Shown: one piece after another, positions 34,255-59,346 of the stretch
Layout of the letters: every line of letters begins with the position of its first letter
Position numbering within the stretch: position 1 is the first letter of the stretch
Assembly (NCBI RefSeq): GCF_029960785.1
Contig: NZ_JASBQE010000023.1
Coordinates: forward strand, 1-64,000
Length of the DNA: 64,000 bases
Direction: 5' to 3'
Origin: Polyangium sp. 15x6
Lineage (GTDB): Bacteria; Myxococcota_A; Polyangia; Polyangiales; Polyangiaceae
Notes under the pieces: model-generated
Databases searched by the model: none
What the model was told of the DNA's origin: nothing
The model's input: only the letters and a program-made list of their open reading frames with translations
Position numbers and translations under genes: made by a program

Positions 34255-34998
34255 TCACACCGCGCCGTCCACCAGAATGGTCGCTCCATTCACGTACGAC
34301 GCGCGATCCGACACCAGGAACGCCGCCATCTCGGCGACCTCCTGGAACGTGCCGAGCCGCCCGAGCGCCGTGTGCCGGAGGTACTCGTCGAGCCGACCTT
34401 TCGGCAGATTCACGCTGACCCCGCCCTCGAGCACCCCGGGCGCGAGGTTGTTCACGGTGATCCCGTACCGCCCGATCTCCTTGGCGAGCGCCTCGGTAAA
34501 ACCCTTGATGGCCGCCTTTGCCGTGCAGTAATGCACCGGCGCTTGCATCATCTTCACCCCGGCGAGCGAGCCGATGTTGAGGATGCGCCCGCGCCGGAGC
34601 TTGACCATGCCCCGAAGGACGGCCTGCGTGGCGAGGAACGTGCCTTTCACGTTCGTATCCATCACGCGGTCCCAATCGTCTTCGTCCATCAACGCGAGCG
34701 GAACCACGTCGGACACGCCCGCGTTGTTCACGAGCACGGAAACGGTCCCCACCGCGGACTCCATTTCCTTCACGGCTGCGGCGAGGCCCTGCTTGTCGAG
34801 CACGCTCGTTCGAAAGGAAAAACCCCGCACCCCGTGGGCCTCGATCTCGGCGAGCGTCTCCTTCGCCTCGACCTCCGATTTCGTCCAGTTGAACCCGACG
34901 TGCGCCCCTTCGCGGGCGAGCGTCACGGCGATCGCCCGCCCGAGGCCCTTGGAGCCGCCCGTCACCAGGGCGATGTGCCCTTCGCAAAGCTTCGTCAT
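34255..34998 (-). CDS. SDR/FabG-like 3-oxoacyl reductase, partner of radical SAM
   Basis: A 247-residue short-chain dehydrogenase. The Rossmann motif TGGSKGLG, the NNAG motif, the catalytic triad region with Ser in NIGSLAG and Tyr-X3-Lys in HYCTAK, and a C-terminal GATILVDGAV are all typical of FabG-like NAD(P)H reductases. It overlaps the upstream radical SAM gene by ATGA. It is a near-twin in length and layout of the SDR at 55903-56646, which also follows a radical SAM gene, so both belong to a duplicated module of the acyl pathway. Confidence 0.9.
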   Translation of the reverse strand: MTKLCEGHIALVTGGSKGLGRAIAVTLAREGAHVGFNWTKSEVEAKETLAEIEAHGVRGFSFRTSVLDKQGLAAAVKEMESAVGTVSVLVNNAGVSDVVPLALMDEDDWDRVMDTNVKGTFLATQAVLRGMVKLRRGRILNIGSLAGVKMMQAPVHYCTAKAAIKGFTEALAKEIGRYGITVNNLAPGVLEGGVSVNLPKGRLDEYLRHTALGRLGTFQEVAEMAAFLVSDRASYVNGATILVDGAV

Positions 34999-36716
34999 GT
35001 ACTCACGATGGAAAGACGTGTCGTCCCGTTTTCCTTCACCCAGGGCTTCTTGCCCCAGGACGGCGTCACCGTCCCCGGCCCCTTCGCGGCGCCGCGGTGG
35101 AACATGTTGAAGCCACACGCCGGCATGATCCGCCCGTCCGTCTGCGGATAATGATGGCAGCATTTGCGCAGGCGCTCGAGATCGAAATCGTGCCGATCCA
35201 TGTAATGGTGCAGGAAGATCGATTTCGCCTGCTGCTCGCCGACGAGCAGGCTCTCCTTCTGCGTCATCGGCCGATCCGGGAACATCACCTTCAGCGTGCG
35301 CTTGAGCGCCGCGAGGATCTCCGGCCCCCGCTCGATCTCGTCCTGCCGCGCGTACACGTCGTAGAGCACGTCCTGCAGCGTCTGCTCCATCTCCGGCGTC
35401 GCGGGGAGCGTCGCGCTCGAACGGAGGAGCGAACCGTGCTTCGTGAAATCGACGAACCGCGAGAACGGCAGGAACGTCCCGTCCTCGAGGCGGAGCAGGT
35501 AGGTGAGCGACACGCATTGCGGGTGCGAGCACGGCAGCGGGAAGAAATCCTCCACCTTGAGCTTGCCGCCCGTCTGCTCGTCGACGCGCCGCACGACGCC
35601 CGGGATCGTCAGCCGATCCATCGGATCGTGACCGAAGAGACCGCCTCCGTGGCCCGTGTAGGCGGCGGGCTGGAAGTTCAGCGAGAGGAAATGGTCCTCC
35701 GAGAGGAAGAGCTCGACGACCTTTCCGATCTGATCGTCGTTCACCCCGCGCGTCGCCACGAAGATGATCTGCGTCGGGATCTGGAGCTCGCGCAGCGCCG
35801 CGAGCGCGGCTTCCTTCTCCTTCACGAGGTCGCGGCCGCGGATCTTCTCGTGTGTATCGGCGGTGAAGCCGTCGAGCTGCAGGCCCACGTACGCGCCGCT
35901 CTCCTTGATCGCCTTCGCGAAGGCGCGGTCCTTGCCGAGCCGGATGCCGTTCGTGATCACCACGACGCGGCCGATCTCGGGGCGGCTCGCGATGCGCACG
36001 AGGTCGAGGATCTGCGGGTGGCTCGTGGGTTCGCCGCCGGAGAGCGCCACGGACTCGCACTGCCCCTCGTTCACCACGAGGGTGTCGATCATGCGCGTAA
36101 AAGTGTCGAGATCGATGTGGTTCGAGTACTGGTTGTCGACGATGCAGATCGGGCACTCGAGGTTGCAGTGGTCGGTGACCTCGATGATCGGCAGGCAGGT
36201 GTGCTGCTCGTGATCATTGCAGGTCCCACAATCCGTGGGGCAACCGTGCTCGACCTTCGTGGCGAACTTCAAAGGCTCGGTGCCGGCGCGCGCGAACGCA
36301 TAGGCGCGCACGTAATATTTCGCGTCCTCTGAAACGAGCGCCTCCGAGGGACCACACGACGCGCAGTTTTTCTTGAAATACACGCGGCCTTCGCGGATCA
36401 CGACCTTCGCGGGCAAGAGCGTCAGGCAACCCGGACACGTGGACGTCGTCTCCTTGAACTCGACCTCCCCCTCGAACCCCTCGGGGACCTCGCCGCGCGC
36501 GAGAAAACGGTCGACATAATCTTTTGCAGTGCCGGGAAGAATTTCCTCCGAAGGGCCACACGTGGGGCAAAGCAGCAGCCGCACGGGGTTTTCGCCGCGC
36601 AGCACGACGCGTCCTTCATGCGTTTCGCGGCACGTCGGACACGCCGCACGCTCGTGGTGGAAAAACGTATGCGGACGGTCCTGTCGTGTCGGCGTGATAC
36701 AGCTAACGCAATCCAT
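34995..36716 (-). CDS. Tes/MJ0619-like radical SAM enzyme
   Basis: A 573-residue enzyme. The N-terminal part has paired Cys: Cys26/29, Cys50/53, Cys94/97 and Cys118/121, like two zinc-ribbon pieces. A conserved cluster follows at Cys159/163/166 and Cys174, then the CX3CX2C at Cys184, 188, 191 and GGEPTSHP. The C-terminus has RKCCHHYP and PACGFNMFHR. This layout matches MJ0619/Tes/Mss-type enzymes that couple or modify fatty chains. It is divergent from the FabZ-KS operon and overlaps its SDR, so acyl chains are the likely substrate (inference). GGGGAG precedes the ATG. Confidence 0.86.
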   Translation of the reverse strand: MDCVSCITPTRQDRPHTFFHHERAACPTCRETHEGRVVLRGENPVRLLLCPTCGPSEEILPGTAKDYVDRFLARGEVPEGFEGEVEFKETTSTCPGCLTLLPAKVVIREGRVYFKKNCASCGPSEALVSEDAKYYVRAYAFARAGTEPLKFATKVEHGCPTDCGTCNDHEQHTCLPIIEVTDHCNLECPICIVDNQYSNHIDLDTFTRMIDTLVVNEGQCESVALSGGEPTSHPQILDLVRIASRPEIGRVVVITNGIRLGKDRAFAKAIKESGAYVGLQLDGFTADTHEKIRGRDLVKEKEAALAALRELQIPTQIIFVATRGVNDDQIGKVVELFLSEDHFLSLNFQPAAYTGHGGGLFGHDPMDRLTIPGVVRRVDEQTGGKLKVEDFFPLPCSHPQCVSLTYLLRLEDGTFLPFSRFVDFTKHGSLLRSSATLPATPEMEQTLQDVLYDVYARQDEIERGPEILAALKRTLKVMFPDRPMTQKESLLVGEQQAKSIFLHHYMDRHDFDLERLRKCCHHYPQTDGRIMPACGFNMFHRGAAKGPGTVTPSWGKKPWVKENGTTRLSIVST

Positions 36717-36793
36717 GACGCTCCCCTCGTGAGCACGTATCTTCCACTCTGTGTGCCTTGGACGTCAATTCGAACTGCTATCCTCGGCCGCAC
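36717..36793. promoter_or_regulatory. Divergent promoter region of the acyl cluster
   Basis: The 77 bases between the radical SAM start (36716) and the dehydratase start (36794) are the only place from which both arms of the first half can be transcribed. I do not see a convincing -10/-35 pair or operator, but both arms must start here or nearby. Confidence 0.45.
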
Positions 36794-37261
36794 GTGCGTT
36801 ACCTGCTCCTCGATCGGATCACGCGGCTCGAACCGCCGCGCCTCGCGACGGGTGTCAAGTGTGTGTCGCTCTCGGACGACACCTTCGCGGACCACTTTCC
36901 TGGCCACCCGGTGATGCCCGGCGCGCTCGTGATCGAGGCGCTCGCGCAGCTCGGCGGCGTGCTCCTCGAAGCAAGCCGGCGCGCCGAGGGACACGAGGAC
37001 GTACACGCGCTGCTCACGATGATCGATCACGCCCGCTTCCGGCGCATCGTCAGGCCCGGGGACAAACTCGAGCTCGAAGCGGAGGCGATCCTCGCGCGTG
37101 AAGAAGGCGGGCAGGTGAAAGGCAAGGCGCGGGTCGACGGCGAGGTCGTGGCGACGGCCGAGCTCGGCTTCGCGTTCGCGCGCGTGACGAACCCCAAGGT
37201 GCTCGCGCGGCGGCGCGAGGTGCTCGACGTATGGCTGACGGGAGCAGCGGAGGAGCCTTGA
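36794..37261 (+). CDS. FabZ-like (3R)-hydroxyacyl-ACP dehydratase
   Basis: A 155-residue hot-dog protein. HFPGHPVMPGAL carries the catalytic His34, and Glu48 in IEALAQLGG completes the FabZ dyad. It dehydrates 3-hydroxyacyl-ACP to trans-2-enoyl-ACP. I use the GTG at 36794, giving the usual FabZ N-terminus RYLLLDRI; a TTG at 36758 would add 12 unlikely residues. It is the first gene of the ketosynthase operon and overlaps the first KS gene. Confidence 0.9.
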   Translation: MRYLLLDRITRLEPPRLATGVKCVSLSDDTFADHFPGHPVMPGALVIEALAQLGGVLLEASRRAEGHEDVHALLTMIDHARFRRIVRPGDKLELEAEAILAREEGGQVKGKARVDGEVVATAELGFAFARVTNPKVLARRREVLDVWLTGAAEEP

Positions 37262-38463
37262 AAAGGCGCGTTTTCGTGCGCGGTCGCGGCGCGATCACCC
37301 CGCTCGGCGAGACCTGGCCCGCGTCGAGGGACGCGCTCGCCGAAGGCCGATCCGCGGTCGGCCCCGTCAAACATTTTGACGTCGAAGGATATCCCTCGCA
37401 GGTCGCGGCGAGTGTCCCCTTCCCCCTCGAAGAAGCCGAGGATCGCCGCCTCGCGCTCGCGCGGCGCGCCGCGGACGAGGCGTGGAGCGAGGCCCAGCAG
37501 AGGGCCGAGCCGGAGCGGATCGGCGTGTTCGTCGGCGCCGAGAGCGGCCGAGCCACGTACGGGACGATCTTCGCGCTCTCACGCGCGGCGGGCGGCGGCG
37601 CGCGCTTCGATCACGCGCGCTTCGGCGAGGAGGCGCGGGGCCTCGCGACGTCCGTGCACGCGGCCGCGGTCTCGCCTGCTGCGATCGCGTCGGCGCTCGC
37701 GGCGCGGATCGGCGCCGAGGGACCGGTGGAGACGATCTCGCTCGCCTGCGCGTCGGGCGCGGCCGCGATCGTCTCGGCGACGCAGGCGATCCGGCTCGGA
37801 CTTTGCGACGTCGCGCTCGCGGGCGGCGTGGGCGCGGACGTCGATCCGTTCATGCTCGTAGGATTCGGGCTGCTCGGGGCGCTCAGCGCGCGTGGTGTCT
37901 CGTGCCCGTTCGACGTGCGGCGCGACGGGTTCGTCGTGGGCGAGGGCGCGGCGTTCGTGGTGCTCTCGTCGTCTCCCGGCGACGAACCGCGCTCGGAGAT
38001 CCGAGGGGCGGCGCGCACGCTCGACGCGCACCACCTCACGGCGCCCGATCCGACGGGCGACGGGGCCGAGCGGGCCATGCGCGGCGCGATCGAGGACGCG
38101 GGCCGCGTGAAGATCGGCTACGTGCAGGCGCACGGCACGAGCACGCAGCTCAACGACGCCGTCGAGGCCGCGGCGATCCGGCGGGTCCTCGCCGACGCGC
38201 TCTCCGACGTGCACGTCGGCGCGGTGAAAGGCGCGGTCGGGCACTGGATCGCGGGCGCGGGCGCGATGGGCTTCCTGTGCGCGCTCGAAGCGGTCGAGGA
38301 AGGCCTCTGTCTGCCGACCGCGGGCCTCACCGAGCCCGATCCCGCGTGCATGTTGCCGCACGTCGTGGGCGCGGCCTTGCGAAAACCCGTAGAAGCAGCG
38401 CTCGTCAACGCCTTCGCGTTCGGCGGAGCGAACGCGAGCCTCGTGGTGAGCCGATGCGCCTAG
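37231..38463 (+). CDS. Beta-ketoacyl-ACP synthase, catalytically intact (KS-alpha 1)
   Basis: A 410-residue FabF-type condensing enzyme. Cys173 in SLACASGAAA is the acyl nucleophile, and His301 (QAHGTSTQLND) and His338 (VKGAVGHWIAGAG) complete the triad. NAFAFGGANAS is the C-terminal glycine motif. The ATG at 37231 overlaps the dehydratase gene by 31 bases; a TTG at 37258 right after GGAGGAG is an alternative. It is followed with a 10-base overlap by a partner that lacks the nucleophile, like a KS/CLF pair. Confidence 0.92.
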   Translation: MADGSSGGALKRRVFVRGRGAITPLGETWPASRDALAEGRSAVGPVKHFDVEGYPSQVAASVPFPLEEAEDRRLALARRAADEAWSEAQQRAEPERIGVFVGAESGRATYGTIFALSRAAGGGARFDHARFGEEARGLATSVHAAAVSPAAIASALAARIGAEGPVETISLACASGAAAIVSATQAIRLGLCDVALAGGVGADVDPFMLVGFGLLGALSARGVSCPFDVRRDGFVVGEGAAFVVLSSSPGDEPRSEIRGAARTLDAHHLTAPDPTGDGAERAMRGAIEDAGRVKIGYVQAHGTSTQLNDAVEAAAIRRVLADALSDVHVGAVKGAVGHWIAGAGAMGFLCALEAVEEGLCLPTAGLTEPDPACMLPHVVGAALRKPVEAALVNAFAFGGANASLVVSRCA

Positions 38464-39569
38464 ACGGAAAAGGCCTTCCCATCGTCGCCCTCTCGACCCT
38501 GACGACGGCGGGCCTCGCGGGCCGCGGCCTCGGCCGTCGCGTGCTCGAGAGCAGCCTCCCTCTGCCGTCCGAGATCGCCGCGCCCGCGCCGTCGCGGCCC
38601 GAGGATGTCCGGCAAAGAAAGCTCATGTCCCGCGCCGCGTGGTTCTCCGCGCTCGTCATGCGCGGCGCGCTCGACGAGGCGCGGTGGGACGAAGGGCGCG
38701 CCGAGATCGGCGCATTCTTCGGCGTCGGCGCCTCGGGCGCGGAGATGGACGAGGTCGCCCGGCTCGTCGCGGCGAGCATGGAGGACGGCCGGTTCTCGCT
38801 CGCGCGGTGCGGCCGCGAGGGGCTCGACGCGTGCAACCCCCTGTTCGCGTTCCAGATCATGAACAACTTCACCCTCTGCCACGGAGCGATCCTCGAGGGC
38901 CTCGCCGGCCCGAACGCCGCGTTTTTCTCGCGCGGCACGGGCACGGTGACGGCGCTCGAAGAGGCGTGCGCCGCGATCACGTCGGGCGCGTGCGAGCGCG
39001 CGCTCGTCGGCGGCGCGGACACGGCCCTGCACCCGGTCACGATGGCCGAGCTCGAACGCGAAGGCTTCTTGCGGCAAGGGCTCACGCCGGCCGAAGGCGC
39101 GGCGGCGCTCGCGCTCGCTGCCGGGGCCGAAGCGCCGATCGGTTACGTGGAGGCCGTGCGGGTGTTCACGGTCGATCGCCCCCGCGGCGCGCTCGTGCCC
39201 CGCACGGGCGTGCTGCGCGACACGGCCGTGCCTGCCGCGTTCGACGCGCTCGAGGACCAGCCTTGCGACGTCGTCGTGCTCGCGCCCTGGGGCACGCCCG
39301 CGCGCGAGGCGCTCATGGATCTGCCCGAGGTGCTCGAAGCGGAGCACGCGGTCGACGCCTCGCTCTCCCTCGGCGAATCCCTCGCCGCGACGCCGGCGCT
39401 CGCCTGGGCGCTCGCGCTCGATCTGCTCGCGCACCTCGACAAACCCCGCGCGCTCGTCCTCTCGGCGGGCCCGGACGGGGATCTCGGGGCCGTCGTGCTC
39501 GGGCGGGGGGTTTGGGGGCGTAGCTCGGCTCGTCCGAGCGTAGCCCCCATCGACGAGGAGGGCGCGTGA
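38454..39569 (+). CDS. Ketosynthase homologue without nucleophile (CLF-like 1)
   Basis: A 371-residue thiolase-fold protein, shorter than a full KS. The nucleophile region reads AAFFSRGTGTVTALEEA, with Ser159/Arg160 where the Cys would be, and the two active-site His motifs are missing. That makes it a likely chain-length-factor-type partner of the KS before it. The last about 20 residues are encoded by a palindromic repeat (39514-39548) and may be a decayed end. It overlaps the following KS gene at TGATG. Confidence 0.85.
   Translation: MRLDGKGLPIVALSTLTTAGLAGRGLGRRVLESSLPLPSEIAAPAPSRPEDVRQRKLMSRAAWFSALVMRGALDEARWDEGRAEIGAFFGVGASGAEMDEVARLVAASMEDGRFSLARCGREGLDACNPLFAFQIMNNFTLCHGAILEGLAGPNAAFFSRGTGTVTALEEACAAITSGACERALVGGADTALHPVTMAELEREGFLRQGLTPAEGAAALALAAGAEAPIGYVEAVRVFTVDRPRGALVPRTGVLRDTAVPAAFDALEDQPCDVVVLAPWGTPAREALMDLPEVLEAEHAVDASLSLGESLAATPALAWALALDLLAHLDKPRALVLSAGPDGDLGAVVLGRGVWGRSSARPSVAPIDEEGA
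39514..39548. repeat. Imperfect palindrome within the CLF-like gene 3' end
   Basis: GGGGGCGTAGCTCGG faces CCGAGCGTAGCCCCC across CTCGT, an imperfect inverted repeat. It lies in the last 20 codons of the CLF-like gene and resembles the in-frame repeat in the dipeptidase gene (CGGGGGC/GCCCCCG arms). Confidence 0.6.
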
Positions 39570-40846
39570 TGGGCGCGCGTCGCGCGGTGATCACGGGCGT
39601 CGGCGCGGTCAGCGCGTTCGGCGTCGGGTACGAGGCGCTCGCGAACGGGCTCGCCGCGGGCCGCAGCGCGGTCGGCCCGATCCGCAGCTTCGACGCGCGC
39701 ACCTTCCCCACGCGTGTCGCGGGCGAGGTGCCGATCGAGAAGACGGACGCGCTCTTCCTGGAAAAACACCGCGGCGTCCTGCTGCACGTCGGCGAGGCCG
39801 GGACGTGGGAAGAATCGGGCCTGCTCCGCGACCGCAAGGTGTGCTTCGGCCTCGTCGCGGCGGCGGAGGCATGGCGCCATGCGCGATGCGGGACGGCCGA
39901 GCGCAAGGCCGCGCTCTCCGTCGGCCTCGGGCTCGAACAGGCGTTCCTGGAGGACCTCGCGGAGCAGATCGACGGGGATGAGATCCGCGTCGGCGCAGGC
40001 AATCTTTCGGGTGGCGAGGGCGTTCGGTTCCGCTCGCGTGTCGACATCACGGCCGAGAAGATCCGCGCTGTCGTGGGCATCTCGGGACGCGTCGCCGTGC
40101 ACGCCTCGGCATGCGCGGCGGGCGGCATGGCCGTCGCGCACGCGGCCTCGTTGATCGAGCGGGGCGCGGTGGACGTCGTGCTCTGCGGCGCGGCGGACTC
40201 GATGGTCAACCCGCTCGGCATCGGCGGCATGTCGCGCCTCGGCGCCCCCTCTCCGCGCGCCGAGGCCTCGGCATGCCGGCCGTTCGATCGACGGCGCGAC
40301 GGGCTCGTCGTCGGCGAGGGCGCGGCGATGTTCGTGGTCGAGGAGGAATCCCGGGCGCGCGCGCGCGGCGCGGAGCCGCTCGCGGTCATCGCCGGCTTCG
40401 CGACCACGCAGGATGCCTACCGCGCGACGGCGCCCCGCCCCGATGGATCCCGCGCGCTCGCGGCCATGGAACGCGCTGTTCGTCGCGCCAACCTCACGCC
40501 CGCGGACATCGGGTACGTCAATGCCCACGGCACGGGGACGCCGCTCAACGATCCGGCCGAGGCGAAGGCGATCCGCGCGCTCTTCGGCGACGTGCCCACG
40601 TCGAGCATCAAGGGCGCCGTCGGCCACCTGATGGCCGCCGCCGGCGCGATTGAGCTCGCCGCGTGCCTGCTCGCGTTCACGCGGGATCTGCTCCCCGGGA
40701 CGGCACATTTCGAGGAGCCGGATCCGGAGTGCCCGATCCACGTGATCGGCCCGAGGCCCCTCGCCAAACGCGTGGATCATGTGCTCTCGAACTCGTTCGG
40801 GTTTGGCGGGCAAAACGTCAGCGTGGTCCTCGGGAGACCGGGATGA
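39569..40846 (+). CDS. Beta-ketoacyl-ACP synthase, catalytically intact (KS-alpha 2)
   Basis: A 425-residue condensing enzyme. Cys182 (HASACAAGGMA), His320 (VNAHGTGTPLND) and His353 (IKGAVGHLMAAAG) form the triad, and SNSFGFGGQN is the C-terminal motif. A GTG directly upstream (39566) is also in frame; ATG 39569 after GAGGAGG is preferred. It overlaps the CLF-like gene before it and, as ATGA, the second CLF-like gene after it. Confidence 0.93.
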   Translation: MGARRAVITGVGAVSAFGVGYEALANGLAAGRSAVGPIRSFDARTFPTRVAGEVPIEKTDALFLEKHRGVLLHVGEAGTWEESGLLRDRKVCFGLVAAAEAWRHARCGTAERKAALSVGLGLEQAFLEDLAEQIDGDEIRVGAGNLSGGEGVRFRSRVDITAEKIRAVVGISGRVAVHASACAAGGMAVAHAASLIERGAVDVVLCGAADSMVNPLGIGGMSRLGAPSPRAEASACRPFDRRRDGLVVGEGAAMFVVEEESRARARGAEPLAVIAGFATTQDAYRATAPRPDGSRALAAMERAVRRANLTPADIGYVNAHGTGTPLNDPAEAKAIRALFGDVPTSSIKGAVGHLMAAAGAIELAACLLAFTRDLLPGTAHFEEPDPECPIHVIGPRPLAKRVDHVLSNSFGFGGQNVSVVLGRPG

Positions 40847-42033
40847 CGCATGCGGGCCGGATGGCCGTGACGGGGTTTGCCCTGCGCACCCCGCTCGGCG
40901 ACGACCCCGCGGCCGTGCTCCGGAAGCTCCTCGCCGGCGAGCGCGCGGCGGCCCCGAATGCCCATTTCGACGCGAGCACCTACGCCTGCCGCCTCGCCGC
41001 CACGATCCCGGGCGCGCCCCGGCCGACGAAGCACCGCAAATTCGTCAAGCGGATGGGGCTCTTCGGCATGGAGGTCGGGGCCGAGGCCCTCGCCCGCTCG
41101 GGCGCCCCGGCGACAGGCGCTCGGCTCGGGCTTTTTTGCGGTTATGGAGGCCTGCGCGCGCACTGGGACGATCTGATGCCCGTGCTCGAACGGCAGGCGG
41201 GCGACGAGCGCGCGACGGGCGCATGGGCGCAGGGTTTTTCCTTGCTACACCCGTTCTGGATGTTGTTTCACCTGTCGAACAACGCGCACGCGCTCCTGTC
41301 GATCGACGTCGGCGGCAAGGGCGACGGCACGACCACGGCGGGCTCGAATGCGGGGGCGCAGGCGCTCTCGGCGGCCATCGTCGCCCTCGCCATGGAGCGC
41401 GTCGATGCGGCGCTCGTGTTCGCGTACGATTCACTCGTCGAGCCGGAGACGATCCTCTCGCTCGGCATGTCCGGCGCCGCGACGCAGGCCAACACGCCCG
41501 CGGCGATCGTGGCCCCGTACGACGAGCGCGCGGCGGGGATCGTGCCCGGCGAGGCCGCCGCGGCACTGGTGCTGGAGCGGCCCGAAGATGCGGGAAAGCG
41601 AGCGATTTCGTTCGTCTCGGCCGCGGCGACGGCCGATGGCGCCGTGGACTTTCCCTCGCCGCGCGCGATCGCCTCCCTCGCGGCCAATCTCTCCGCGGGT
41701 GACACGATCGTCGACGGCGCCGCGCTCGCCTCGCCCGCGCGCGACGCGGCCGAACGCGCGGCCCTCGCCGACGTGCTCGGCCCCTCGGCCACGCTCCTCG
41801 CCTTGACGGCTTCCACGGGCCAGCTCGGCGGCGCGACGGCGGTGGTGCAGGCGATCCTGCTCGCCGAGGCGCTCCGCACGGGCGCGCTGCCGCCCATCGC
41901 GGGCCTCGATCGTCCCGCCGAAGGCCCGCTCCGCCCGCTCCTGCGCGCCGAGGAGACACGCGCTCGCTCGGCCCTGGCCCTCTCGGCCGGCATGCCGGGG
42001 CTCGCCGGCGCCCTGCGCGTGGAGGTTCCATGA
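40843..42033 (+). CDS. Ketosynthase homologue without nucleophile (CLF-like 2)
   Basis: A 396-residue KS-fold protein. The nucleophile position reads TAGSNAGAQ (Ser168/Asn169 in place of Ala-Cys), and the His-containing HGTxT and GHxxxAAG motifs are absent. As with the first pair, it directly follows an intact KS, so it should be a CLF-like partner. The upstream open frame lies inside the KS gene; the ATG at 40843 overlaps its stop. The following FabG-like gene overlaps it by four bases. Confidence 0.88.
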
Positions 42034-42785
42034 ACGAAACCAAGGAGCGATCCCGCGTCGCGCTCGTCACGGGCGCCTCGCGCGGCATCGGACGCGCCAT
42101 TGCGGAGGCGCTCGGCCGGCGCGGATATGCCGTCGCCGTCGATTATCGCAACGGCGAGGAAGCGGCGCAAAAGACCGTGGCCGCCGTGGAGGCGCTCGGG
42201 GCGCGGGCCGTCGCTCTCCGCGCCGACGTCTCGCGCCCCGCGGAGGTCGCGTCCCTCTTCGAGCAGGCCGAGAGCACGCTCGGGCCGCTCGACGCGCTCG
42301 TCTGCAATGCCGGCGTCACCCGCGACGGCCTCCTCGGCGCGAGCACCGAAGACGATTACGATCACGTCTGGGGCACGAACGCCGCCGGCGTGGTGCATTG
42401 CTGCCGCGAGGCCGCGCGGCGCTTCATCTCCCGACGGCGCGGCGTGATCGTCAACGTCTCCAGCGTGGCCGCGCAGCGCCCGGGCCGCGGGCAATCGCTT
42501 TATGCCGCCTCGAAGGGCGCCGTCGAGTCGTTCACCCGCGCGCTCGCGGTCGAGCTCGCGCCGCGCGGCGTGCGCGTGAACGCCGTGGCGCCTGGGCTCG
42601 TCGAGACCGACATGACGGCCGAGCTCCGGGCCCTCGCGCCGGAGGAGCTCGCGAAACGCATCCTGCTCAAGCGCGTCGGCCGCCCCGAGGAAATCGCGGC
42701 GGTCGTCGCTTTCCTCGTCTCGGACGAGGCGAGCTACGTGACGGGACAGATATGGAACGTGGACGGCGGATTCAAGCTGGAATGA
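42030..42785 (+). CDS. FabG-like 3-oxoacyl-ACP reductase
   Basis: A 251-residue SDR with [29 protein letters not shown] with the catalytic Ser, YAASKGAV (Tyr-X3-Lys) and [13 protein letters not shown]. All motifs of a FabG-type NADPH reductase are intact. It supplies the keto-reduction step of the cluster. It overlaps both neighbours by four bases, as part of a seven-gene translationally coupled run. Confidence 0.93.
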
Positions 42786-43447
42786 GCGGCCCCGGCGGGA
42801 TCGGAGGCCCGGGGATGCTGGCGTGGCTGGAAACGAGGCGATCGCGCCGCGCGTTCGAGGACACGCCCGTGCCGAAGGAGGTGCTCGCCCGGCTCGTGCA
42901 AGCCGCGATCACGGCGCCCTCGAACACGAACCGGCAGCCATGGCGGTTCACGGTCGTCACGGCCCCGGACAAACGGAAGCAAATCGCCGCGGCCGTGCGG
43001 GCGCGGGCCGAGGAGATCAAGGAAATCATCCACCGCGGGCACCACGCCGAGGATTTCGCCAATTACGGCGATTTTTTCCACGAGCCGCTGGAGAGCGCCG
43101 CGGCCATCGTGGTGCCGCAATGGCGCGATTACCCCGACCTCATCGCCGATCTCATCACCTCGGGCGGCGGGGATCCTTCGGAGTACCACACGGCCCGCAG
43201 CATGCAGGCCGAGCTCTGCTCGACGAGCGCGGCCGTGATGGCGATGCTCCTCCAGGCGCACGCCGAGGGCCTCGGCGCCTGCTGGATGGCGGGCCCGATG
43301 ATCGCGAAGCCAGAAATCGAGGCGCTGCTCGGCATCCGGGAACCGTTCCGGATGGTGGGCGCCGTGGCGATCGGATACCCCGTGGGCGACGCGCCGCCGC
43401 CCGGGCGAAAGCCGATCGATCGCGTCGTGCAATGGGTGGACGATTGA
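42782..43447 (+). CDS. Nitroreductase-family flavoprotein
   Basis: A 221-residue protein of the NAD(P)H-FMN nitroreductase family: [35 protein letters not shown] and the [10 protein letters not shown] segment. The family includes enoyl reductases, dehydrogenases and oxidases. Since no ordinary enoyl-ACP reductase is seen in the cluster, it may reduce or desaturate an acyl intermediate (inference). The ATG overlaps the FabG-like stop. Confidence 0.88.
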
Positions 43448-44312: not shown

Positions 44313-44369
44313 TGGGGCTCGGTTCCTTGCTCATGAACGACCTTCGGCGAATGCTTTCGAGGCGGCTCA

Positions 44370-44753: not shown

Positions 44754-44951
44754 TCCGGGGCTGAAGATAAAACATGGACACACGCCGAATCCATGCGGAC
44801 CGTGCCCCAGTCACGTGTCGGGATTTTCCCGCGGTCCTTCGGAGATTGGATGAACATCCCCGCAAAATCGGCCTTTGTCGCGGACGCAACACCGAGACAC
44901 CGGGATTGGCATACTAGTCTCCGCGACAATCGCGCCCTCGCCCAACATTTT

Positions 44952-44973
44952 TTCGAATCGGTTACCATTCGAA
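44952..44973. promoter_or_regulatory. Inverted repeat in divergent promoter region
   Basis: TTCGAAT (44952-44958) and ATTCGAA (44967-44973) form a perfect 7-bp inverted repeat with an 8-base spacer in an unusually AT-rich patch (about 44945-44995). It lies 63 bases before the histidine kinase gene and could be an operator or promoter element. The rest of the 280-base gap (44754-45035) shows nothing else. Confidence 0.45.
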
Positions 44974-54156: not shown

Positions 54157-54528
54157 ATGCAATCCGGGCACATCCTCGTCCACGTCACGACACGCTCGGC
54201 CGAGGAGGCCGAGGCGCTCGGCGCCGCCGCCGTCGCGCGCAGGCTCGCCGCTTCGGCCCAGGTCGAGCCGATCACGACGAGCCATTACCGGTGGAAAGGC
54301 GCGATCCACGCCCACCCCGAGCACCGCGTGACGCTCTTCTCGCGCGCGGCGCTCTGGGATGCGATCGTCGCGTTCGTCCGTGCGAACCATTCCTACGAGC
54401 TGCCGCAGATCGTCGCGACGCCCATCACCATGGGCCTGCCGGAGTTCCTCTCCTGGATCGACGAGAACACGCGCGCGCTGGAGCAAGAGAGCGATGAGGT
54501 ACAAGAAGCTCGGGACGACCTCGATTGA
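54157..54528 (+). CDS. cutA: CutA-like divalent ion tolerance protein
   Basis: A 123-residue protein with the CutA pattern: ILVHVTTRSAEEAEALGAA at the start, TSHYRWKGAIH, and the signature NHSYELPQIVATPI. CutA is a ferredoxin-like trimer of unclear role linked to metal tolerance. It has a C-terminal acidic extension. It overlaps the following aldo/keto reductase by 35 bases. Confidence 0.88.
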   Translation: MQSGHILVHVTTRSAEEAEALGAAAVARRLAASAQVEPITTSHYRWKGAIHAHPEHRVTLFSRAALWDAIVAFVRANHSYELPQIVATPITMGLPEFLSWIDENTRALEQESDEVQEARDDLD

Positions 54529-55450
54529 GGTGAGCGCCGTCATTTTCGGCGGCTGGCAGGCGGGCAAGGAGTCGTGGGTCGGCATCGACGACGCCGCGCA
54601 GATCGCCGCGCACCGGGCGGCCCTCGACGCGGGCGTGACCACGTTCGACACGGCCGAGGAGTACGGAGCCGGGCACAGCGAGCGGATCCTCGCGAAGGCG
54701 CTCGCCGGCGAGCGCGAGCGGATCGTGATCTTGACGAAGGTGTCCTGGAACAACCTGCGTCGGGAGAAGGTGATCGAGGCGTGCGAGCGCTCGCTGAAAA
54801 ACCTCGCGACGGATCGGATCGATCTCTACCAGATTCACTGGCCCGCCGGGAGCTTCGGCAGCGAGGTGGTGCCGATCGAGGAGACGATGGGCGCGCTCGT
54901 GGATCTGAAGGCGCAGGGGAAGATCCGCGCGATCGGCGTATCGAACTTCGACCGACCGCAGCTCGAGGCCGCGAGCCGCGTGGGCCGGGTCGACAGCCTG
55001 CAGCCCTGCTATTCGCTGTTTTTTCGGAAGGCGGTGGAGGACACGCTCTCGTATTGTCAAAAGAACGAGATTTCGGTGCTCGCGTATTCGCCGCTCGCCC
55101 AGGGTCTGCTCACGGGCAAGTTCGGGCGCGGGCACGTGTTCGCCGAGGGCGACAACCGCGTCGACAACCGGCTCTTCAAGGGCGAGACGTTCGCAAAGGC
55201 GCTCGCGGGCCTCGACGAGCTCCGCCCGATCGCCGCGCGGAACGGCGTGCCCCTCACGAACCTCGCGCTCGCGTGGCTCATCGCGCAGGAAGGCGTGGGC
55301 GCGATTGTGGGCGCGAGGAACGAGGCGCAGGCGAGGGAGAATGCGCGCGCGGGGGATGTCACGCTCGGCGCGGCGGATCTCGCGGAGATCGACCGGATCG
55401 GGCGGGCAGTCTCGGATTCCCTGCCGCCCGGATTGATGTGGGACTGGTGA
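54494..55450 (+). CDS. Aldo/keto reductase (cytoplasmic)
   Basis: A 318-residue protein with the standard aldo/keto reductase barrel: TTSIEVSAVIFGGWQAG, DTAEEYGAGHSER (Tyr), the Lys in LTKVSW, IHWPAG (His), GVSNFDRPQ and the C-terminal GARNEAQAREN coenzyme segment. No signal peptide is seen, unlike its neighbour at 52286. It precedes the acyl carrier protein gene by 19 bases and might reduce an aldehyde in that pathway (inference). Confidence 0.9.
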   Translation: MRYKKLGTTSIEVSAVIFGGWQAGKESWVGIDDAAQIAAHRAALDAGVTTFDTAEEYGAGHSERILAKALAGERERIVILTKVSWNNLRREKVIEACERSLKNLATDRIDLYQIHWPAGSFGSEVVPIEETMGALVDLKAQGKIRAIGVSNFDRPQLEAASRVGRVDSLQPCYSLFFRKAVEDTLSYCQKNEISVLAYSPLAQGLLTGKFGRGHVFAEGDNRVDNRLFKGETFAKALAGLDELRPIAARNGVPLTNLALAWLIAQEGVGAIVGARNEAQARENARAGDVTLGAADLAEIDRIGRAVSDSLPPGLMWDW

Positions 55451-55469: not shown

Positions 55470-55889
55470 ATGTCCGAAGCCGCCTCGCCCCCCGTCTCCG
55501 ATCCCGAGATCGCCGCGCAGGTCCGCCAGATCGTCGCCGAGGCGCTCGCCCTCGATCCGGCCGCGGTGAAGAACGAGTCGCTCCTGATGGCCGATCTCGG
55601 CGCCGAGTCGCTCGATTACCTCGACATCGTGTTCAAGATCGAGCGGACGTTCGGCATCCAGATCACGCGGGGCGAGATGCAAAAGGCCGCGCGCGGCGAC
55701 ATGAGCGAGGAGGAGTTCGCGCCGGGCGGCGTCGTCAGCGACAAGGGCCTCGAACGGCTGCGCGAGCTGATGCCGGAGGCGAAGGACCGCATCGTCCCGG
55801 GGCTACGGCCCGTGCAGATCCTGGGGCTGTTCTCCGTGCAGACGTTCGTGAACATGGTGGAAGCGAAGAAGCGGGGCGTGGTGGTCTGA
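55470..55889 (+). CDS. Acyl carrier protein with long C-terminal extension
   Basis: A 139-residue ACP. LMADLGAESLDYLDIVFKIE places the phosphopantetheine Ser at 47. About 60 residues beyond the usual ACP end (from MSEEEFAPGG to the C-terminus) are a distinct extension. It is the only ACP in the window and therefore the likely carrier of the KS/CLF cluster. It is convergent with the SDR gene, with 13 bases between stops. Confidence 0.92.
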   Translation: MSEAASPPVSDPEIAAQVRQIVAEALALDPAAVKNESLLMADLGAESLDYLDIVFKIERTFGIQITRGEMQKAARGDMSEEEFAPGGVVSDKGLERLRELMPEAKDRIVPGLRPVQILGLFSVQTFVNMVEAKKRGVVV

Positions 55890-55902: not shown

Positions 55903-56646
55903 TCAAAGCCCGCCGTCGATCACCACCTGCCCGCCCGTCATGAACGAGTTCTCGTCCGAGACGAGCCACGCCGCGAGGTCCGCGACCTCCTCCACCGTGC
56001 CGAGCCTGCCGAGCGCCGCTTGCGCCACGTAACTCTCGACGCGGTGCTTCGGCAATCGTGCCGACAAACCTGTCTCGAGCAGGCCCGGCACGAGGCAATT
56101 CACCGCGATTCCGTACCGGCCGACCTCCTTCGCGAGCGCCAGCGAAAACCCGACGAGCGCCGCCTTCGAGGCCGCGTAGTGGACCGGCGCGTCGAGGACG
56201 CGGTCCGCGCCGAACGAGCCCACGTTCAGGATGTGGCCTTTTTTGGCCCGGATCATCGATTTCAACGCCGCGCGCGAGAACAGATACGGGCCCTTCACGT
56301 TCGTATCCATCGCCGCGTCCCACTCCGCCTCCTCCAGCAGCGCGATCGGGAGGACCTGCGTGAGCGCCGCGTTGTTCACGAGCACGTCGATGCCGCCGTA
56401 CGCCGTCTCCACCGCCTTCACCGCGGCCGTCACGTGCGCGGCGTCCGAGACCGAGCCCTTGAGCACGAGCGGCGAGGCGCCCGCGGCTTCGAGCAGCGCC
56501 CGCGTCTCCTCGGCCGCGTCGTCGCGCTCGCGGTACGTGAACGCCACGCGCGCCCCTTCCCGCGCGAAAGCGAGCGCAATCGCGCGGCCGAGATTTCTCG
56601 AGCCGCCCGTCACGAGGCAACGTTTTCCCGAAAGGCGCGCGCTCAT
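55903..56646 (-). CDS. SDR/FabG-like reductase, partner of second radical SAM
   Basis: A 247-residue SDR with GGSRNLG, NNAALTQ, NVGSFGA and the Tyr-X3-Lys HYAASK. It matches the SDR at 34255 in length, order (directly after a radical SAM gene) and four-base overlap. The two differ in side chains around the active site (APVHYCTAKAAIKG versus APVHYAASKAALVG). It is most likely a 3-oxoacyl reductase or dehydrogenase on a modified chain. Confidence 0.9.
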   Translation of the reverse strand: MSARLSGKRCLVTGGSRNLGRAIALAFAREGARVAFTYRERDDAAEETRALLEAAGASPLVLKGSVSDAAHVTAAVKAVETAYGGIDVLVNNAALTQVLPIALLEEAEWDAAMDTNVKGPYLFSRAALKSMIRAKKGHILNVGSFGADRVLDAPVHYAASKAALVGFSLALAKEVGRYGIAVNCLVPGLLETGLSARLPKHRVESYVAQAALGRLGTVEEVADLAAWLVSDENSFMTGGQVVIDGGL

Positions 56647-58118
56647 CGGGTCCTCCCGCGGCCGAGCTGCACGAGCGGCGTCGCGGGACGCGGGGAAAAA
56701 CGCGCGTCGCGCTCGCGGTAGAGGACGTTGTAGGCGCAGGAGGGGACGTTCGAGCCGTCGGGGCCGGGCATGCCGACGCAGCAGCGGCGAATGCGATCCG
56801 TGTCGAAGGTCTCCTCGTCCATGTGGGTGTGCACGTAAATGGCCTTCGTGTGCATCTCGGCGATCCGCATGCGAATGGCCTCGTCCGTGCCCGGCGCGAA
56901 CATGCGCTCGACGAGGTCCTTCAAGGCGGCGAGCACCGCGTCGGCTTCCTCGCATTCGATGTCGCCCGCCCAGAGGCGATTCAACACGTCCGCGAGGATC
57001 TGCTCCATTTCGGGGCCGGGCACGATGTAGAGCTCCTGCGAGAGGAGGCTGCGCAGGTCGTCGCGGCTCATGAAGCGGGTGAACGGGAGCCAGCGGCCGT
57101 CCTTCAAGCGCAAGAGATAGGCAATCTGGTAACAGAGCGGGTGCGCGAGCGGAGACGGGACGAAATCGCGGACCGCGATCCGGCCGCCCGATTGGCGCTC
57201 GATGTCGGAGAGCGCGTCGAACGCGGTGTAGCGCGCGCTGCGCTCGAAGCTCGCGCCGCTCTGGCCCGTGAACGTCATGGGATGGAACTCGACGGAGCGG
57301 ATGAAATCCTTCGAGAGCGCGAGGTCGATGAAAGCCGCGACCTCATGGTCGTTCACGCCACGCGCGAGCACGGGCAGGAGCGTCGTGGCCACCGCGTGTT
57401 TTTCCAGGAGATCGAGGATCTTGAGCTTGGCGTTCAGGTGGTGGCCGCCGAGCATCTTCTTGTTCGCCTCGGGCTCGAAGGAGTCGAACGAGAGAATGAC
57501 GCGGGCGTCGATGCGGGCGAGGCGCTCGAGCAGCGCCTCGTCGCGGAGGAAACGCAGGCCGTGCGTGGAGACGGTGACGCGCCGGACGCCGGCCGAGACG
57601 CACATCTCGACGAGGCGCTCGAATTCAGGGTGCTGCGTGGGTTCGCCGCCGGTGATGTTGATGATACGGCGGTCGGGCGCGACGTGGTCGAGGTGCCGCA
57701 GGATCGCCGCGAGCTCCCCCTCGGACATGTGGTAGGCGCCCTCGTTCTTGTTGTGCGTGTAGCAGATGGGGCAATCGAGGTCGCATTTCGAGGTGATCGG
57801 GACGACCGGGAGGTGATTGCGTTGCTCGTGCTGCTCGCAAGGGCCGCAATCGTAAGGGCAGCCGGCGGAGATGGGGCGCGGCGAGGCGGGGCGTTCGAGG
57901 ACGGAGGCGTGCCGGACGGTGTCCTCGTACCAGTCCGCGGAGCTCGAGACGAGCACCTCCTCGGGGCCGTGCAGCTCGCAGCGCTTGCGCAGGACGATCT
58001 TGCCGGAGGCGCGCACGGTCTCGGCCGGGACCGTGCGCTTGCACGTCCCGCAGAGGCCCATCGTGGCGCCGAGGATCACGCCTTCGTCCGTTACGTCCGC
58101 CATTGCCACTTCAGCCAT
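56643..58118 (-). CDS. Tes/MJ0619-like radical SAM enzyme (second copy)
   Basis: A 491-residue relative of the enzyme at 34995. One N-terminal Cys-rich segment (Cys23/26, Cys47) replaces the longer one, then Cys87/91/94 (AGCPYDCGPCEQH) and radical SAM Cys112, 116, 119. GGEPTQHP and the C-terminal RRCC and PSCAYNVLYR motifs are shared. ATG at 58118 is used; ATG at 58103 is an alternative. It overlaps a membrane-protein gene upstream and an SDR downstream. Confidence 0.87.
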   Translation of the reverse strand: MAEVAMADVTDEGVILGATMGLCGTCKRTVPAETVRASGKIVLRKRCELHGPEEVLVSSSADWYEDTVRHASVLERPASPRPISAGCPYDCGPCEQHEQRNHLPVVPITSKCDLDCPICYTHNKNEGAYHMSEGELAAILRHLDHVAPDRRIINITGGEPTQHPEFERLVEMCVSAGVRRVTVSTHGLRFLRDEALLERLARIDARVILSFDSFEPEANKKMLGGHHLNAKLKILDLLEKHAVATTLLPVLARGVNDHEVAAFIDLALSKDFIRSVEFHPMTFTGQSGASFERSARYTAFDALSDIERQSGGRIAVRDFVPSPLAHPLCYQIAYLLRLKDGRWLPFTRFMSRDDLRSLLSQELYIVPGPEMEQILADVLNRLWAGDIECEEADAVLAALKDLVERMFAPGTDEAIRMRIAEMHTKAIYVHTHMDEETFDTDRIRRCCVGMPGPDGSNVPSCAYNVLYRERDARFSPRPATPLVQLGRGRTR

Positions 58119-58636
58119 TTTCGTACCGCGAAGTCGGTCGCGTGGATGAGAAAAAACCCGAAGACGAGGTTCGTCACCCACGTGGCCCAGAGGGCCGGGG
58201 TGTAGCGCGCGACGGGCGGGAACGGCCGGTGCGCGAGGTTCACGTTGAGCGTGGGCGGCGTCGTGTAATAGGCGAGCACGACCATCGCGGAGAGGAAGGC
58301 GAACGAGACCCACGGAGCCCAGCGCGGCAGGCCCGAGCGGCGGACCTCGAGCGCGCCGACGACGAGCGGCGCGACGTGCACGAGGACCGAGGTCCAGGTG
58401 GTCGTGCGGGTCTCGCAGAGGCCGAAGAGGTACCCCCAGAGGCCGGCGCCGATATGGAAGGAAAAACCAAAGAGGACGAGCGCGGGCTTCTGGAGGAGCA
58501 CGCCGACGGCGAGGACGGCCGTCGCCACGTGGCAGGCGTAGAGCATCTCGGGCAGGAGCCCGTTCGGCATTTTCTCGATGACCGCGTGGAGCACGAGGAC
58601 GACGAAGAGCAGGAGCCCGACCCAGCGCGGCGTCAC
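58091..58636 (-). CDS. Polytopic membrane protein in acyl cluster
   Basis: A 181-residue protein with about five or six membrane helices and few soluble parts. A GTG start overlaps the upstream SDR stop (GTGA), and the end overlaps the radical SAM start. It has scattered His and Tyr residues, with no known motif. Membrane location suggests that the radical SAM product is handled in or moved through the membrane (inference). Confidence 0.75.
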   Translation of the reverse strand: MTPRWVGLLLFVVLVLHAVIEKMPNGLLPEMLYACHVATAVLAVGVLLQKPALVLFGFSFHIGAGLWGYLFGLCETRTTTWTSVLVHVAPLVVGALEVRRSGLPRWAPWVSFAFLSAMVVLAYYTTPPTLNVNLAHRPFPPVARYTPALWATWVTNLVFGFFLIHATDFAVRKWLKWQWRT

Positions 58637-59346
58637 AGGCCCCCCGTGATGGGCAAGACGGAGCCGGTCATCCAGCGATTGTGGAGCGCGAGGCGGGTGA
58701 TGGCGCGCGCCGCCTCGACGGGCGTGCCGACGCGCTGGAGCGCGCTGTACCGCTTGTAATCGGCGAGGCGCGCCGGATCGAGGCTCTCCGAGATGCCGCC
58801 GCCGAGCGCGCCGAGGAGGACGAGGTTCACCCGGACGTCCTTCGGGCCGAGCTCCTTGGCGAGGGCCTGCGTCATGCCGAGCCGCGCTCCCTCGGTCGCG
58901 GCGAAATGCACGGCGGAGGGGATCTTCGCGATGCCGTCGAGCGCCGCCGTGAGGACCACGTCCCCGGGCCTCCCCGCGAGCCGCGCCGCGAACGATTGCA
59001 TGGCGACGTAGACGGAGCGGACGTTGACCGCGTGCATCTCGTCCCAGAGCGCGTCGGTGACGTCCGCGAGCGCGCCCGCGTCGGAGACGACGGCGGCGTG
59101 TACGAGCAGATCGGGCGCGGCGTTTTCGGCGTCGAGCGCGTCGAAGAGGGCGCGGATCGCGGCGGGTTCGGCGAGGTTCGTCCGGAAGGATCGCGCGCCG
59201 GTCTCGGCGGCGAGGGCTTCTGCGACGGCAGCGCCTCGCTGGTACGTGAATGCGACCCGCGCTCCCGCGGCCGCGAGCGCGCGCACGACCTCGCGGCCCA
59301 CGTATCCGCTGCCCCCGAGCACGAGCGCGCGCCGGACGTCGGTCAC
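58633..59346 (-). CDS. SDR-fold protein with altered catalytic residues
   Basis: A 237-residue SDR. The Rossmann motif GGSGYVG and the C-terminal GSVLPITGGL are present. The usual Tyr-X3-Lys is Phe-X3-Glu (VHFAATEGARL), and the Ser region reads VLTAALDG. It is thus probably not an ordinary keto-reductase; a non-catalytic partner or another mechanism is possible. It overlaps both flanking membrane-protein genes by four bases. Confidence 0.8.
   Translation of the reverse strand: MTDVRRALVLGGSGYVGREVVRALAAAGARVAFTYQRGAAVAEALAAETGARSFRTNLAEPAAIRALFDALDAENAAPDLLVHAAVVSDAGALADVTDALWDEMHAVNVRSVYVAMQSFAARLAGRPGDVVLTAALDGIAKIPSAVHFAATEGARLGMTQALAKELGPKDVRVNLVLLGALGGGISESLDPARLADYKRYSALQRVGTPVEAARAITRLALHNRWMTGSVLPITGGL

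Follow-up and report, generated by a model that had tools for sequence, protein, structure and literature searches.

Ketosynthase/CLF genes and Tes-like radical SAM enzymes of Polyangium: a candidate pathway to radical-coupled, amine-bearing lipids

What does Polyangium, a soil myxobacterium, build with two intact ketosynthases (KS1, KS2), two nucleophile-less ketosynthases (CLF1, CLF2) and a radical SAM enzyme (rSAM) related to tetraether synthase (Tes), all encoded side by side? Few enzymes are able to join unactivated alkyl carbons, and Tes serves as their model. The window, by which we mean the whole stretch of 64,000 nucleotides that was analysed (Polyangium sp. 15x6, contig NZ_JASBQE010000023.1), holds a core operon at 36794-43447 that runs divergently from the rSAM1/SDR1 pair at 34255-36716 (Table 1). 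We propose that one biosynthetic system is split between 34255-43447 and 55470-60440 and is completed by two unlinked loci of the host genome, and that this system is a radical-coupled, aminated acyl-chain pathway, a reading to which we give an even chance.

Table 1. Features of the proposed system within the window
Feature	Coordinates	Strand	Remarks
SDR1, FabG-type short-chain dehydrogenase	34255..34998	-	Pfam/NCBIfam; N-S-Y-K intact; 4-bp overlap with rSAM1
rSAM1, Tes-like radical SAM enzyme, 573 aa	34995..36716	-	PF04055 + PF23545
FabZ-like dehydratase	36794..37261	+	PF07977, NCBIfam FabZ; GTG start
KS1, intact ketosynthase, own clade	37231..38463	+	Cys/His/Lys/His present; separate 100/100 clade
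CLF1, nucleophile-less KS	38454..39569	+	Cys position Gly; KS fold; homologues in other phyla
KS2, intact ketosynthase	39566..40846	+	Clade 97/85 with KSs of wider family
CLF2, second nucleophile-less KS	40843..42033	+	Cys position Ser; His positions Ala and Gln
FabG-like ketoreductase	42030..42785	+	Pfam/NCBIfam FabG-type SDR; tetrad NSYK
NTR, nitroreductase-fold flavoprotein, proposed enoyl reductase	42782..43447	+	PF00881
Aldo/keto reductase, membership uncertain	54494..55450	+	PF00248; 19 bp upstream of ACP
Dedicated ACP, 139 aa, long C-terminal extension	55470..55889	+	PF00550; Ser in ESL
SDR2, SDR1 paralogue (50 percent identity)	55903..56646	-	
rSAM2, second Tes-like radical SAM	56643..58103	-	PF04055 + PF23545; Tyr459 position Met
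TM1, conserved membrane protein	58091..58636	-	No Pfam or NCBIfam match; alignment
SDR3, catalytic tetrad lost (N-A-F-E)	58633..59346	-	
TM2, polytopic membrane protein	59343..60440	-	Invariant His/Asp positions in alignment; no Pfam or NCBIfam match

Pfam and NCBIfam models describe the core operon as a FabA/FabZ-like protein, four ketoacyl synthases of which two are degenerate, a FabG-type SDR and a nitroreductase. From FabZ through NTR the genes overlap by 31, 10, 1, 4, 4 and 4 bp. The original prediction, made from the sequence alone, had listed these seven overlapping genes and an adjacent Tes-like rSAM, and annotation, overlaps and catalytic residues bear it out. The start of FabZ had to be corrected to 36794, a GTG codon that lines up with the M/V-R-[YFW]-x-L-[LVI]-D-[RK] beginning of its homologues. 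For KS2, a start at the ATG at 39569 is more plausible than one at the GTG at 39566. The best NCBIfam match of NTR is a full-length F420 ligase model, of which it covers the C-terminal nitroreductase part; BluB comes second. NTR is present in most core clusters.

Could these be ordinary FAS II paralogues without a special product? Judged against Cys164/His304/Lys336/His341 of E. coli FabF, KS1 and KS2 retain all four catalytic residues (Cys-His-Lys-His); CLF1 shows G/A/S/E at these positions and CLF2 S/A/T/Q, and the nucleophilic Cys is likewise absent from every CLF homologue checked. PF00109 covers part of the length of CLF1, the predicted model of which is a complete KS fold that best matches FabF (Z ~32 over ~313 residues). 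By VIA-align, this fold is equidistant from FabF and from KS/CLF subunits and thus gives no subtype. KS2 does find its top score in FabF. The window KSs nevertheless reach 258 and 315 bits against an NCBIfam FabF equivalog cut-off of 494, and a separate clade, a patchy distribution and obligate co-occurrence with rSAMs render the FAS II explanation scarcely credible.

The KS tree included E. coli FabF/FabB, the E. coli aryl polyene (APE) cluster and two Streptomyces plasmid clusters, one an aromatic and one a highly reducing type II PKS. KS2 joins the cluster KSs of a wider family and lies apart from the FabF/FabB, aryl-polyene and type II PKS sequences that were sampled. KS1 forms a clade of its own, outside the sampled FabF/FabB, APE, highly reducing and aromatic KSs, in a tree whose deep forks are weakly supported. 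This agrees with the mismatch with ordinary FAS II and aryl-polyene clusters that had been suspected from gene content: the operon KSs grouped with none of the FAS II, aryl-polyene or type II PKS sequences sampled, and neither KS falls into the FabF/FabB clade. Gene order would pair KS1 with CLF1 and KS2 with CLF2, but this pairing is doubtful, because the unit found across the wider family is FabZ-CLF-KS, which corresponds by homology to FabZ...CLF1-KS2; fusions of CLF with KS, in this order, also occur (L048, L078, L079). As judged from these arrangements, the ancestral pair is CLF1-KS2, not KS1-CLF1.

How close are the radical SAM enzymes to Tes? The only strong solved relative of rSAM1 is tetraether synthase 7TOL (213 bits). 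Aligned with 7TOL under the metal-ligand assignments of PMC9433317, all four Tes ligand sets are present, namely rubredoxin, N-cluster C73/C77/C80/H83, RS CX3CX2C and the C-terminal cluster cysteines, with a single variation, rubredoxin H36 to Cys in rSAM1; nearly all full-length copies conserve the cofactor cysteines together with the N-cluster His. It is for these reasons that we favour Tes-like chemistry. The N-terminus of rSAM1 carries an apparent duplicated rubredoxin-like segment, GAGGGGA precedes its ATG, and SDR1, which belongs to the rSAM1 operon, is found in all members of the genus. Against the NCBIfam Tes model (NF045702; cut-off 450 bits), rSAM1 scores 264 and rSAM2 235, and rSAM1 scores 273 against a TrsS cut-off of 490, all below threshold; both proteins match TrsS as well as Tes. 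Nearly all cluster copies have His in place of the labile Met439 of Tes, and Tyr459 is conserved in the rSAM1 lineage only, being lost from the rSAM2 and aminotransferase-linked lineages. On the strength of these two substitutions, at least two of the three Tes-like rSAMs may catalyse a reaction different from that of Tes.

Do these enzymes couple chains at all? Within the same system they might instead modify a polar or amine part, or add sulfur or methyl groups, with the KS/CLF line supplying a starter or tail only. The changes at Met439 and, in two of three lineages, at Tyr459 would agree with this, as would the equal similarity to TrsS and the position of the Tes-like rSAMs, mostly beside an SDR and sometimes also an aminotransferase. 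We consider it rather unlikely, given that all Tes cofactor sites are conserved, that rSAM1 keeps Tyr459, and that fatty acid hydroxylase and membrane protein genes are neighbours.

In a tree with Tes and the unlinked Tes-like proteins of this order, the cluster rSAMs form a clade distinct from both. The Tes-like rSAMs at 17 other loci of the order served as a control: they fall into another clade, their gene neighbours differ, and the KS/SDR/aminotransferase set is absent. Two more Tes-like loci (L139, L140) proved to be members of the system.

Do all these genes belong together? The core gene order is the same in five of five other genomes of the genus and recurs, more divergent, in G137 and G101, which excludes chance. 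In relatives from Myxococcota, Rokubacteria and Betaproteobacteria the modules are contiguous, and partly so in MAGs of Planctomycetota and Verrucomicrobiota. A rokubacterial locus (L077) reads rSAM2-rSAM1-SDR-AT3-SDR-TM1-AT3-rSAM3-FabZ-CLF-KS; contiguous or near-contiguous versions also occur in Betaproteobacteria GR16-43 (L092), in L065 and in L046, the last with the Polyangium-type double KS/CLF. In some genomes, a FabZ-CLF-KS-FabG-NTR-ACP core lies beside amino-acid genes, with the rSAMs elsewhere. Among 184 genomes of the order, 26 of which bear CLF, rSAM1 occurs in 24 and the MoaA-like rSAM3 in 18, every one of them (24/24 and 18/18) CLF-bearing, even where the genes sit on separate contigs (G005, G006, G007, G009) or megabases apart (G150). 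The hypergeometric probabilities, which ignore kinship, are 4e-28 (rSAM1) and 4e-19 (rSAM3) by genome, and 4e-14 and 3e-9 by genus. This near-perfect co-occurrence, together with gene order and the CLF-KS fusions, supports the functional tie to Tes-like radical chemistry that had been suggested earlier.

The original prediction recognised the core operon of this system but did not include the ACP, the aminotransferases or the Tes-like rSAMs other than the first; the system continues at 55470-60440 and in two unlinked loci. In relatives the ACP adjoins NTR (for example L045, L052, L065), and TM1 falls within their clusters. Most SDR3-type homologues likewise lack Ser and the final Lys, and often Tyr too. 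The TM2 fold was modelled weakly (AlphaFold2 pLDDT 64), and Foldseek returned no hit for it under E 0.001. The aldo/keto reductase was seen in Polyangium only (L036, L038, L040, L042, L044). One unlinked locus (C229) encodes the third Tes-like rSAM, an SDR, an aminotransferase, a pseudo-SDR and an ABC permease; the other (C66) encodes a second aminotransferase and rSAM3. All modules are thus encoded in the host's own genome, and this, with the contiguous or near-contiguous versions in relatives and the co-occurrence, is why we treat them as one system. Among solved structures, 4PPM, which we take to be the prodigiosin aminotransferase PigE, is closest to the rSAM3-linked aminotransferase; the NCBIfam match of the latter is PigE (NF053554), below threshold at 412 bits against 850 and over the aminotransferase part only. 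The PLP lysine is conserved in 16 of 16 aminotransferases, and together with the 4PPM/PigE relationship this argues for amination. Lipid substrates are suggested by FA_hydroxylase genes that adjoin the modules in three genera, and by the membrane proteins.

Gene content, conservation, co-occurrence and catalytic residues are direct observations, and from them we infer the following chemistry. Chain extension on the dedicated ACP would fall to KS/CLF heterodimers; FabG would reduce and FabZ dehydrate the chain, and the nitroreductase may act as enoyl reductase, so that a reduced alkyl chain results. This dedicated acyl-ACP line is probably fully reducing. If the conserved nitroreductase has this role, the polyene that had been considered as a product is unlikely. 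The three Tes-like rSAMs would take hydrogen from unactivated chain carbons and couple or cyclise the chains through new C-C bonds; as in the mechanism proposed for Tes, the alkyl radical would be held by the C-terminal cluster. PigE-like aminotransferases could place one or more amines on aldehydes, and TM1, TM2 and the ABC transporter could insert or export the product, which we predict to be an amine-bearing, radical-coupled or carbocyclic lipid.

Alternatively, the rSAMs could couple ordinary tails into membrane-spanning phospholipids of the Mss/brGDGT type, the KS/CLF line merely tuning fatty acid supply. The homology to Tes would suit this, and bacterial Mss has been modelled with the Tes catalytic architecture (PMC13274423). 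We judge it improbable in view of a dedicated ACP, KR, DH and nitroreductase that co-occur obligately with the rSAMs, the aminotransferases, the presence of three rSAMs, and the separation of the cluster rSAMs from Tes and unlinked Tes-like proteins described above.

We tentatively put forward, at a little under even chance, a new lipid pathway in several bacterial phyla, in which a KS/CLF line feeds three Tes-like rSAMs with SDRs to give amine-bearing coupled or carbocyclic lipids; Tes-type C-C bond formation would then have been recruited into ACP-based biosynthesis. Three Tes relatives and a dedicated acyl-ACP line in several phyla would point to lipids, or natural products resembling lipids, of a class not yet described. 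A search of the full-text literature, in which few subscription journals are covered, returned nothing relevant on this gene combination or on such lipids of Polyangium or Sorangium, and no known product. The gene set offers enzymes that can be tested, and candidates occur in sequenced, named organisms, namely Polyangium fumosum DSM 14668, Sorangium cellulosum So ce26 and So0008-312, and Betaproteobacteria GR16-43. The proposal bears on the role of many unassigned bacterial Tes homologues, and has consequences for inferring membrane-spanning lipids in sediments from such homologues.

How does the system compare with known ones? A polyene or aromatic type II PKS, an aryl polyene or a ladderane pathway of known type would share FabZ, KS/CLF, FabG and ACP as common ingredients. 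The E. coli CFT073 aryl polyene cluster has KS, CLF, FabZ-like, FabG-like and ACP genes in common with it, but its acyl-CoA synthetase, MMPL exporter, LolA, glycosyltransferase and acyltransferase are all absent from this system, which adds a nitroreductase and rSAMs. Neither KS joins the APE KSs, in a tree with poorly supported deep forks and a long-branched APE_KSb. With highly reducing type II PKS (ishigamide type, 6KXD) and L119 it shares the KS/CLF fold and a dedicated ACP, KR and DH; it differs in its nitroreductase, Tes-like rSAMs and aminotransferases, and KS and CLF join neither sampled type II PKS cluster (one of each kind, with a long-branched aroPKS_CLF). At the nucleophile position, where a type II PKS CLF would carry Gln or Ala, CLF1 has Gly and CLF2 Ser. 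Anammox ladderane loci likewise combine FASII genes, including cysteine-less FabF paralogues, with radical SAM enzymes; the phytoene-desaturase-like oxidoreductases and B12-binding rSAM that mark them (PMC2649909) are both missing among the genes of this system, so we rejected the ladderane analogy of the original prediction. Taken together, a pathway of any of these known types is very improbable.

Mss, compared here by description rather than by sequence, is a bacterial Tes-like radical SAM enzyme too; reports place it alongside Ger/PlsA and ordinary diacylglycerol lipids, and the accessible text mentions no KS/CLF/ACP or aminotransferase partner. Compared with PigE, the rSAM3-linked aminotransferase is a free-standing domain in unrelated gene company. 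The likeness to Tes itself (GDGT-MAS, Mj0619, PDB 7TOL) extends over PF04055 and PF23545 near full length, all ligand sets and, in rSAM1, Tyr459, which rSAM2 and the aminotransferase-linked copy lack. Unlike Tes, the enzymes of this system reach about half the equivalog score, carry His for Met439, come in three copies and are attached to a KS/CLF/ACP line.

Family searches confirmed the predicted set of seven genes: a FabZ-like dehydratase, two alternating pairs of ketosynthase (KS) and KS-like protein without nucleophile Cys (CLF), a FabG-like reductase and a nitroreductase-fold protein (NTR), with an overlap between every adjacent pair. The distinction between two intact and two nucleophile-less ketosynthases held as well: KS1 and KS2 retain the Cys-His-Lys-His set of FabF, which on alignment is not kept in CLF1, CLF2 or any of their homologues checked. 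CLF1 is short and diverged, yet its model shows a whole KS fold (pLDDT 77, Z ~32). The gene for the radical SAM enzyme rSAM1 is divergent from this operon across a 77 bp gap and overlaps SDR1, encoding a short-chain dehydrogenase, by 4 bp.

Genes of the two pieces of the cluster in the window
Feature	Position	Strand	Basis	Remark
SDR1	34255-34998	divergent from FabZ to NTR	family searches	
rSAM1	34995-36716	divergent from FabZ to NTR	family searches	
FabZ	36794-37261	+	family searches	
KS1	37231-38463	+	family searches	Cys-His-Lys-His kept
CLF1	38454-39569	+	family searches	FabF catalytic set not kept
KS2	39566-40846	+	family searches	Cys-His-Lys-His kept
CLF2	40843-42033	+	family searches	FabF catalytic set not kept
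FabG	42030-42785	+	family searches	
NTR	42782-43447	+	family searches	
ACP	55470-55889	+		unusual C-terminal extension
SDR2, rSAM2, TM1, SDR3, TM2	55903-60440	opposite to ACP		overlapping genes
SDR3	58633-59346	opposite to ACP		catalytic tetrad lost

A second piece, running from the ACP to the membrane protein TM2, lies twelve kilobases downstream, and both pieces recur in all five other Polyangium genomes examined. The intervening stretch (43464-52262) holds histidine kinase and response-regulator genes, a PAS protein and an M20 peptidase. Because the ACP adjoins nitroreductase and KS/CLF genes in genome G137, and G101 has a single locus (rSAM-SDR-AT3-SDR-TM1-rSAM2-ACP-CLF2-KS2-CLF1-KS1-FabZ, with rSAM1-SDR1; AT3, aminotransferase), the split in Polyangium would most simply be explained by DNA inserted or rearranged between NTR and ACP. 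At a separate place, a third Tes-like rSAM is found with an SDR, an aminotransferase and an SDR3-type gene in Polyangium (contig C229; L054, L108), and such a separate module also occurs in Sorangium (L107, L115) and family f3 (L099, L113). Contig G000:C66 carries the MoaA-like rSAM3 with its aminotransferase; with C229 and the pieces on C155, all modules of the contiguous clusters are therefore present in the window's genome. In Polyangium, the gene call for the aminotransferase-linked rSAM gives 749 aa (L054:9820-12069, L108:9150-11399), ~250 aa more than in homologues, which may be a start error or an additional domain.

Do the KS/CLF and radical SAM genes occur together? In a set of 184 Polyangiales genomes, CLF (profile E < 1e-50) occurs in 26, an rSAM1-type protein (>= 440 bits to the rSAM1 of L065) in 24 and rSAM3 (E < 1e-70) in 18; all 24 rSAM1 and all 18 rSAM3 genomes fall within the 26. 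Hypergeometric probabilities, which ignore phylogeny, are for rSAM1 4e-28 counted by genome and 4e-14 by genus, and for rSAM3 4e-19 and 3e-9, respectively. CLF lacks an rSAM1-type match in G081, with two diverged Tes-like rSAMs in its cluster, and in the incomplete G099, which carries the aminotransferase-linked module (L140). The link persists where the genes are apart: CLF and rSAM1 lie on separate contigs in G005, G006, G007 and G009, and in G150, a genome of two contigs, both rSAM3 and the aminotransferase-linked rSAM lie megabases away. Not every genome of genera g41 and g47 carries the system (e.g. 3/5 do in g47), a patchiness expected for accessory metabolism.

Searches with the CLF profile also recovered homologous loci from Sorangium cellulosum and many MAGs of Myxococcota, from one Rokubacteria MAG, from MAGs of Planctomycetota and Verrucomicrobiota (where the rSAM, SDR and FabZ part was seen), from one MAG under the label Cyanobacteria, and from the betaproteobacterium GR16-43, whose chromosome is complete. 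Most often the genes run rSAM2-rSAM1-SDR-SDR-TM1-(aminotransferase)-(MoaA-like rSAM3)-FabZ-CLF-KS-FabG-NTR-ACP, accompanied in some loci by TM2 and an ABC transporter. One cluster (L095) sits in a MAG labelled Bordetella parapertussis, probably a naming error. At L055, L056, L057 and L083 the FabZ-CLF-KS-FabG-NTR-ACP core adjoins a gene resembling N-succinylarginine dihydrolase, the rSAMs being elsewhere in the genome where searched.

KS1 and KS2 share 38 percent identity and fall in separate clades, so the double KS/CLF set is not a recent duplication. In a tree with FabF/FabB, E. coli aryl polyene, Streptomyces type II PKS and wider-family KSs, KS2 clusters with the last (97/85), apart from the others, and KS1 forms a clade of its own. 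As the deep forks are unresolved, our claim is that both lie outside the known clades sampled, FabF/FabB included, in keeping with the original prediction. The conserved FabZ-CLF-KS order of the wider family and CLF-KS fusions in L048, L078 and L079 argue that CLF1-KS2 would be the ancestral pair; KS1 and CLF2 would be later additions or imports.

The only strong solved relative of rSAM1 is the archaeal tetraether synthase Tes (7TOL; 213 bits, next 31). Alignment to 7TOL, with its metal ligands as given in PMC9433317, shows conservation at four sites in nearly all full-length cluster rSAMs: the rubredoxin and radical SAM cysteines, C73/C77/C80/H83 of the N-cluster, and the C-terminal cysteines C338, C455 or C456, and C470. 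Unlike Tes, nearly all have His for Met439, and Tyr459 is retained in the rSAM1 lineage but substituted in the rSAM2 and aminotransferase-linked lineages. All three sub-lineages belong to a single clade (100/99), which excludes Tes as well as 17 unlinked Tes-like proteins from Polyangiales. The cluster rSAMs score under the NCBIfam Tes equivalog cut-off, so we do not assign them to Tes; at most, their mode of action is Tes-like. At its N terminus, the rSAM1 of Polyangium and G137 carries what looks to be a tandemly duplicated rubredoxin-like domain. The unlinked clade (17 loci, L122-L138, other Polyangiales genomes), mostly single copy and often adjoining a membrane protein of ~240 aa, provides candidates for Mss-type (membrane-spanning lipid synthase) or TrsS-type enzymes.

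The aminotransferase linked to rSAM3 is nearest to PigE (412 bits, NCBIfam; solved relative 4PPM), and the PLP lysine is retained in 16/16 checked. For NTR, the best NCBIfam matches are the F420 ligase FbiB, in its nitroreductase part, and BluB; because this FbiB domain is a reductase of a conjugated carbon-carbon double bond, we propose NTR as the missing enoyl reductase. In the window's SDR3, N-A-F-E replaces N-S-Y-K, so that catalytic Ser, Tyr and Lys are all gone; in most homologues of the SDR3 type, Ser and Lys are missing too. This conserved pseudo-SDR is thus probably a non-catalytic partner, perhaps of SDR2. FA_hydroxylase genes adjoin modules in G101, G137 and the window's own genome, which suggests an alkyl chain as substrate.

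In the proposed scheme, the KS/CLF, ketoreductase, dehydratase and probable enoyl reductase line would make a reduced chain on its own dedicated ACP. The Tes-like rSAMs with their SDR partners would form carbon-carbon bonds on this chain by coupling or cyclisation, or perform another radical reaction; PigE-like aminotransferases would add nitrogen, and the membrane proteins and ABC transporter would handle the product. What is shown is the gene system; for the scheme as a whole, with coupling, cyclisation or another radical reaction as the candidate steps, our confidence is evenly balanced.

The window's genome holds other KS-bearing clusters. Those at G000:C133:121240-125938 (L001) and G000:C193:17600-19930 (L003), with long KS/KS-type proteins and ACPs (L003 adds a FabZ-like protein, an SDR and an acyltransferase), are unrelated to this set. 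Close to the window, at G000:C155:81489-85650 (L005, L006), an acyl-AMP ligase, a cyclopropane-synthase-like methyltransferase, an ACP and a FabF-like KS in a row make a probable further acyl modification cluster.

The literature searched holds no description of this enzyme combination. Each enzyme family is already known and the cluster is of the type II FAS/PKS-like kind; there is a substantial chance that its product belongs to a new class.
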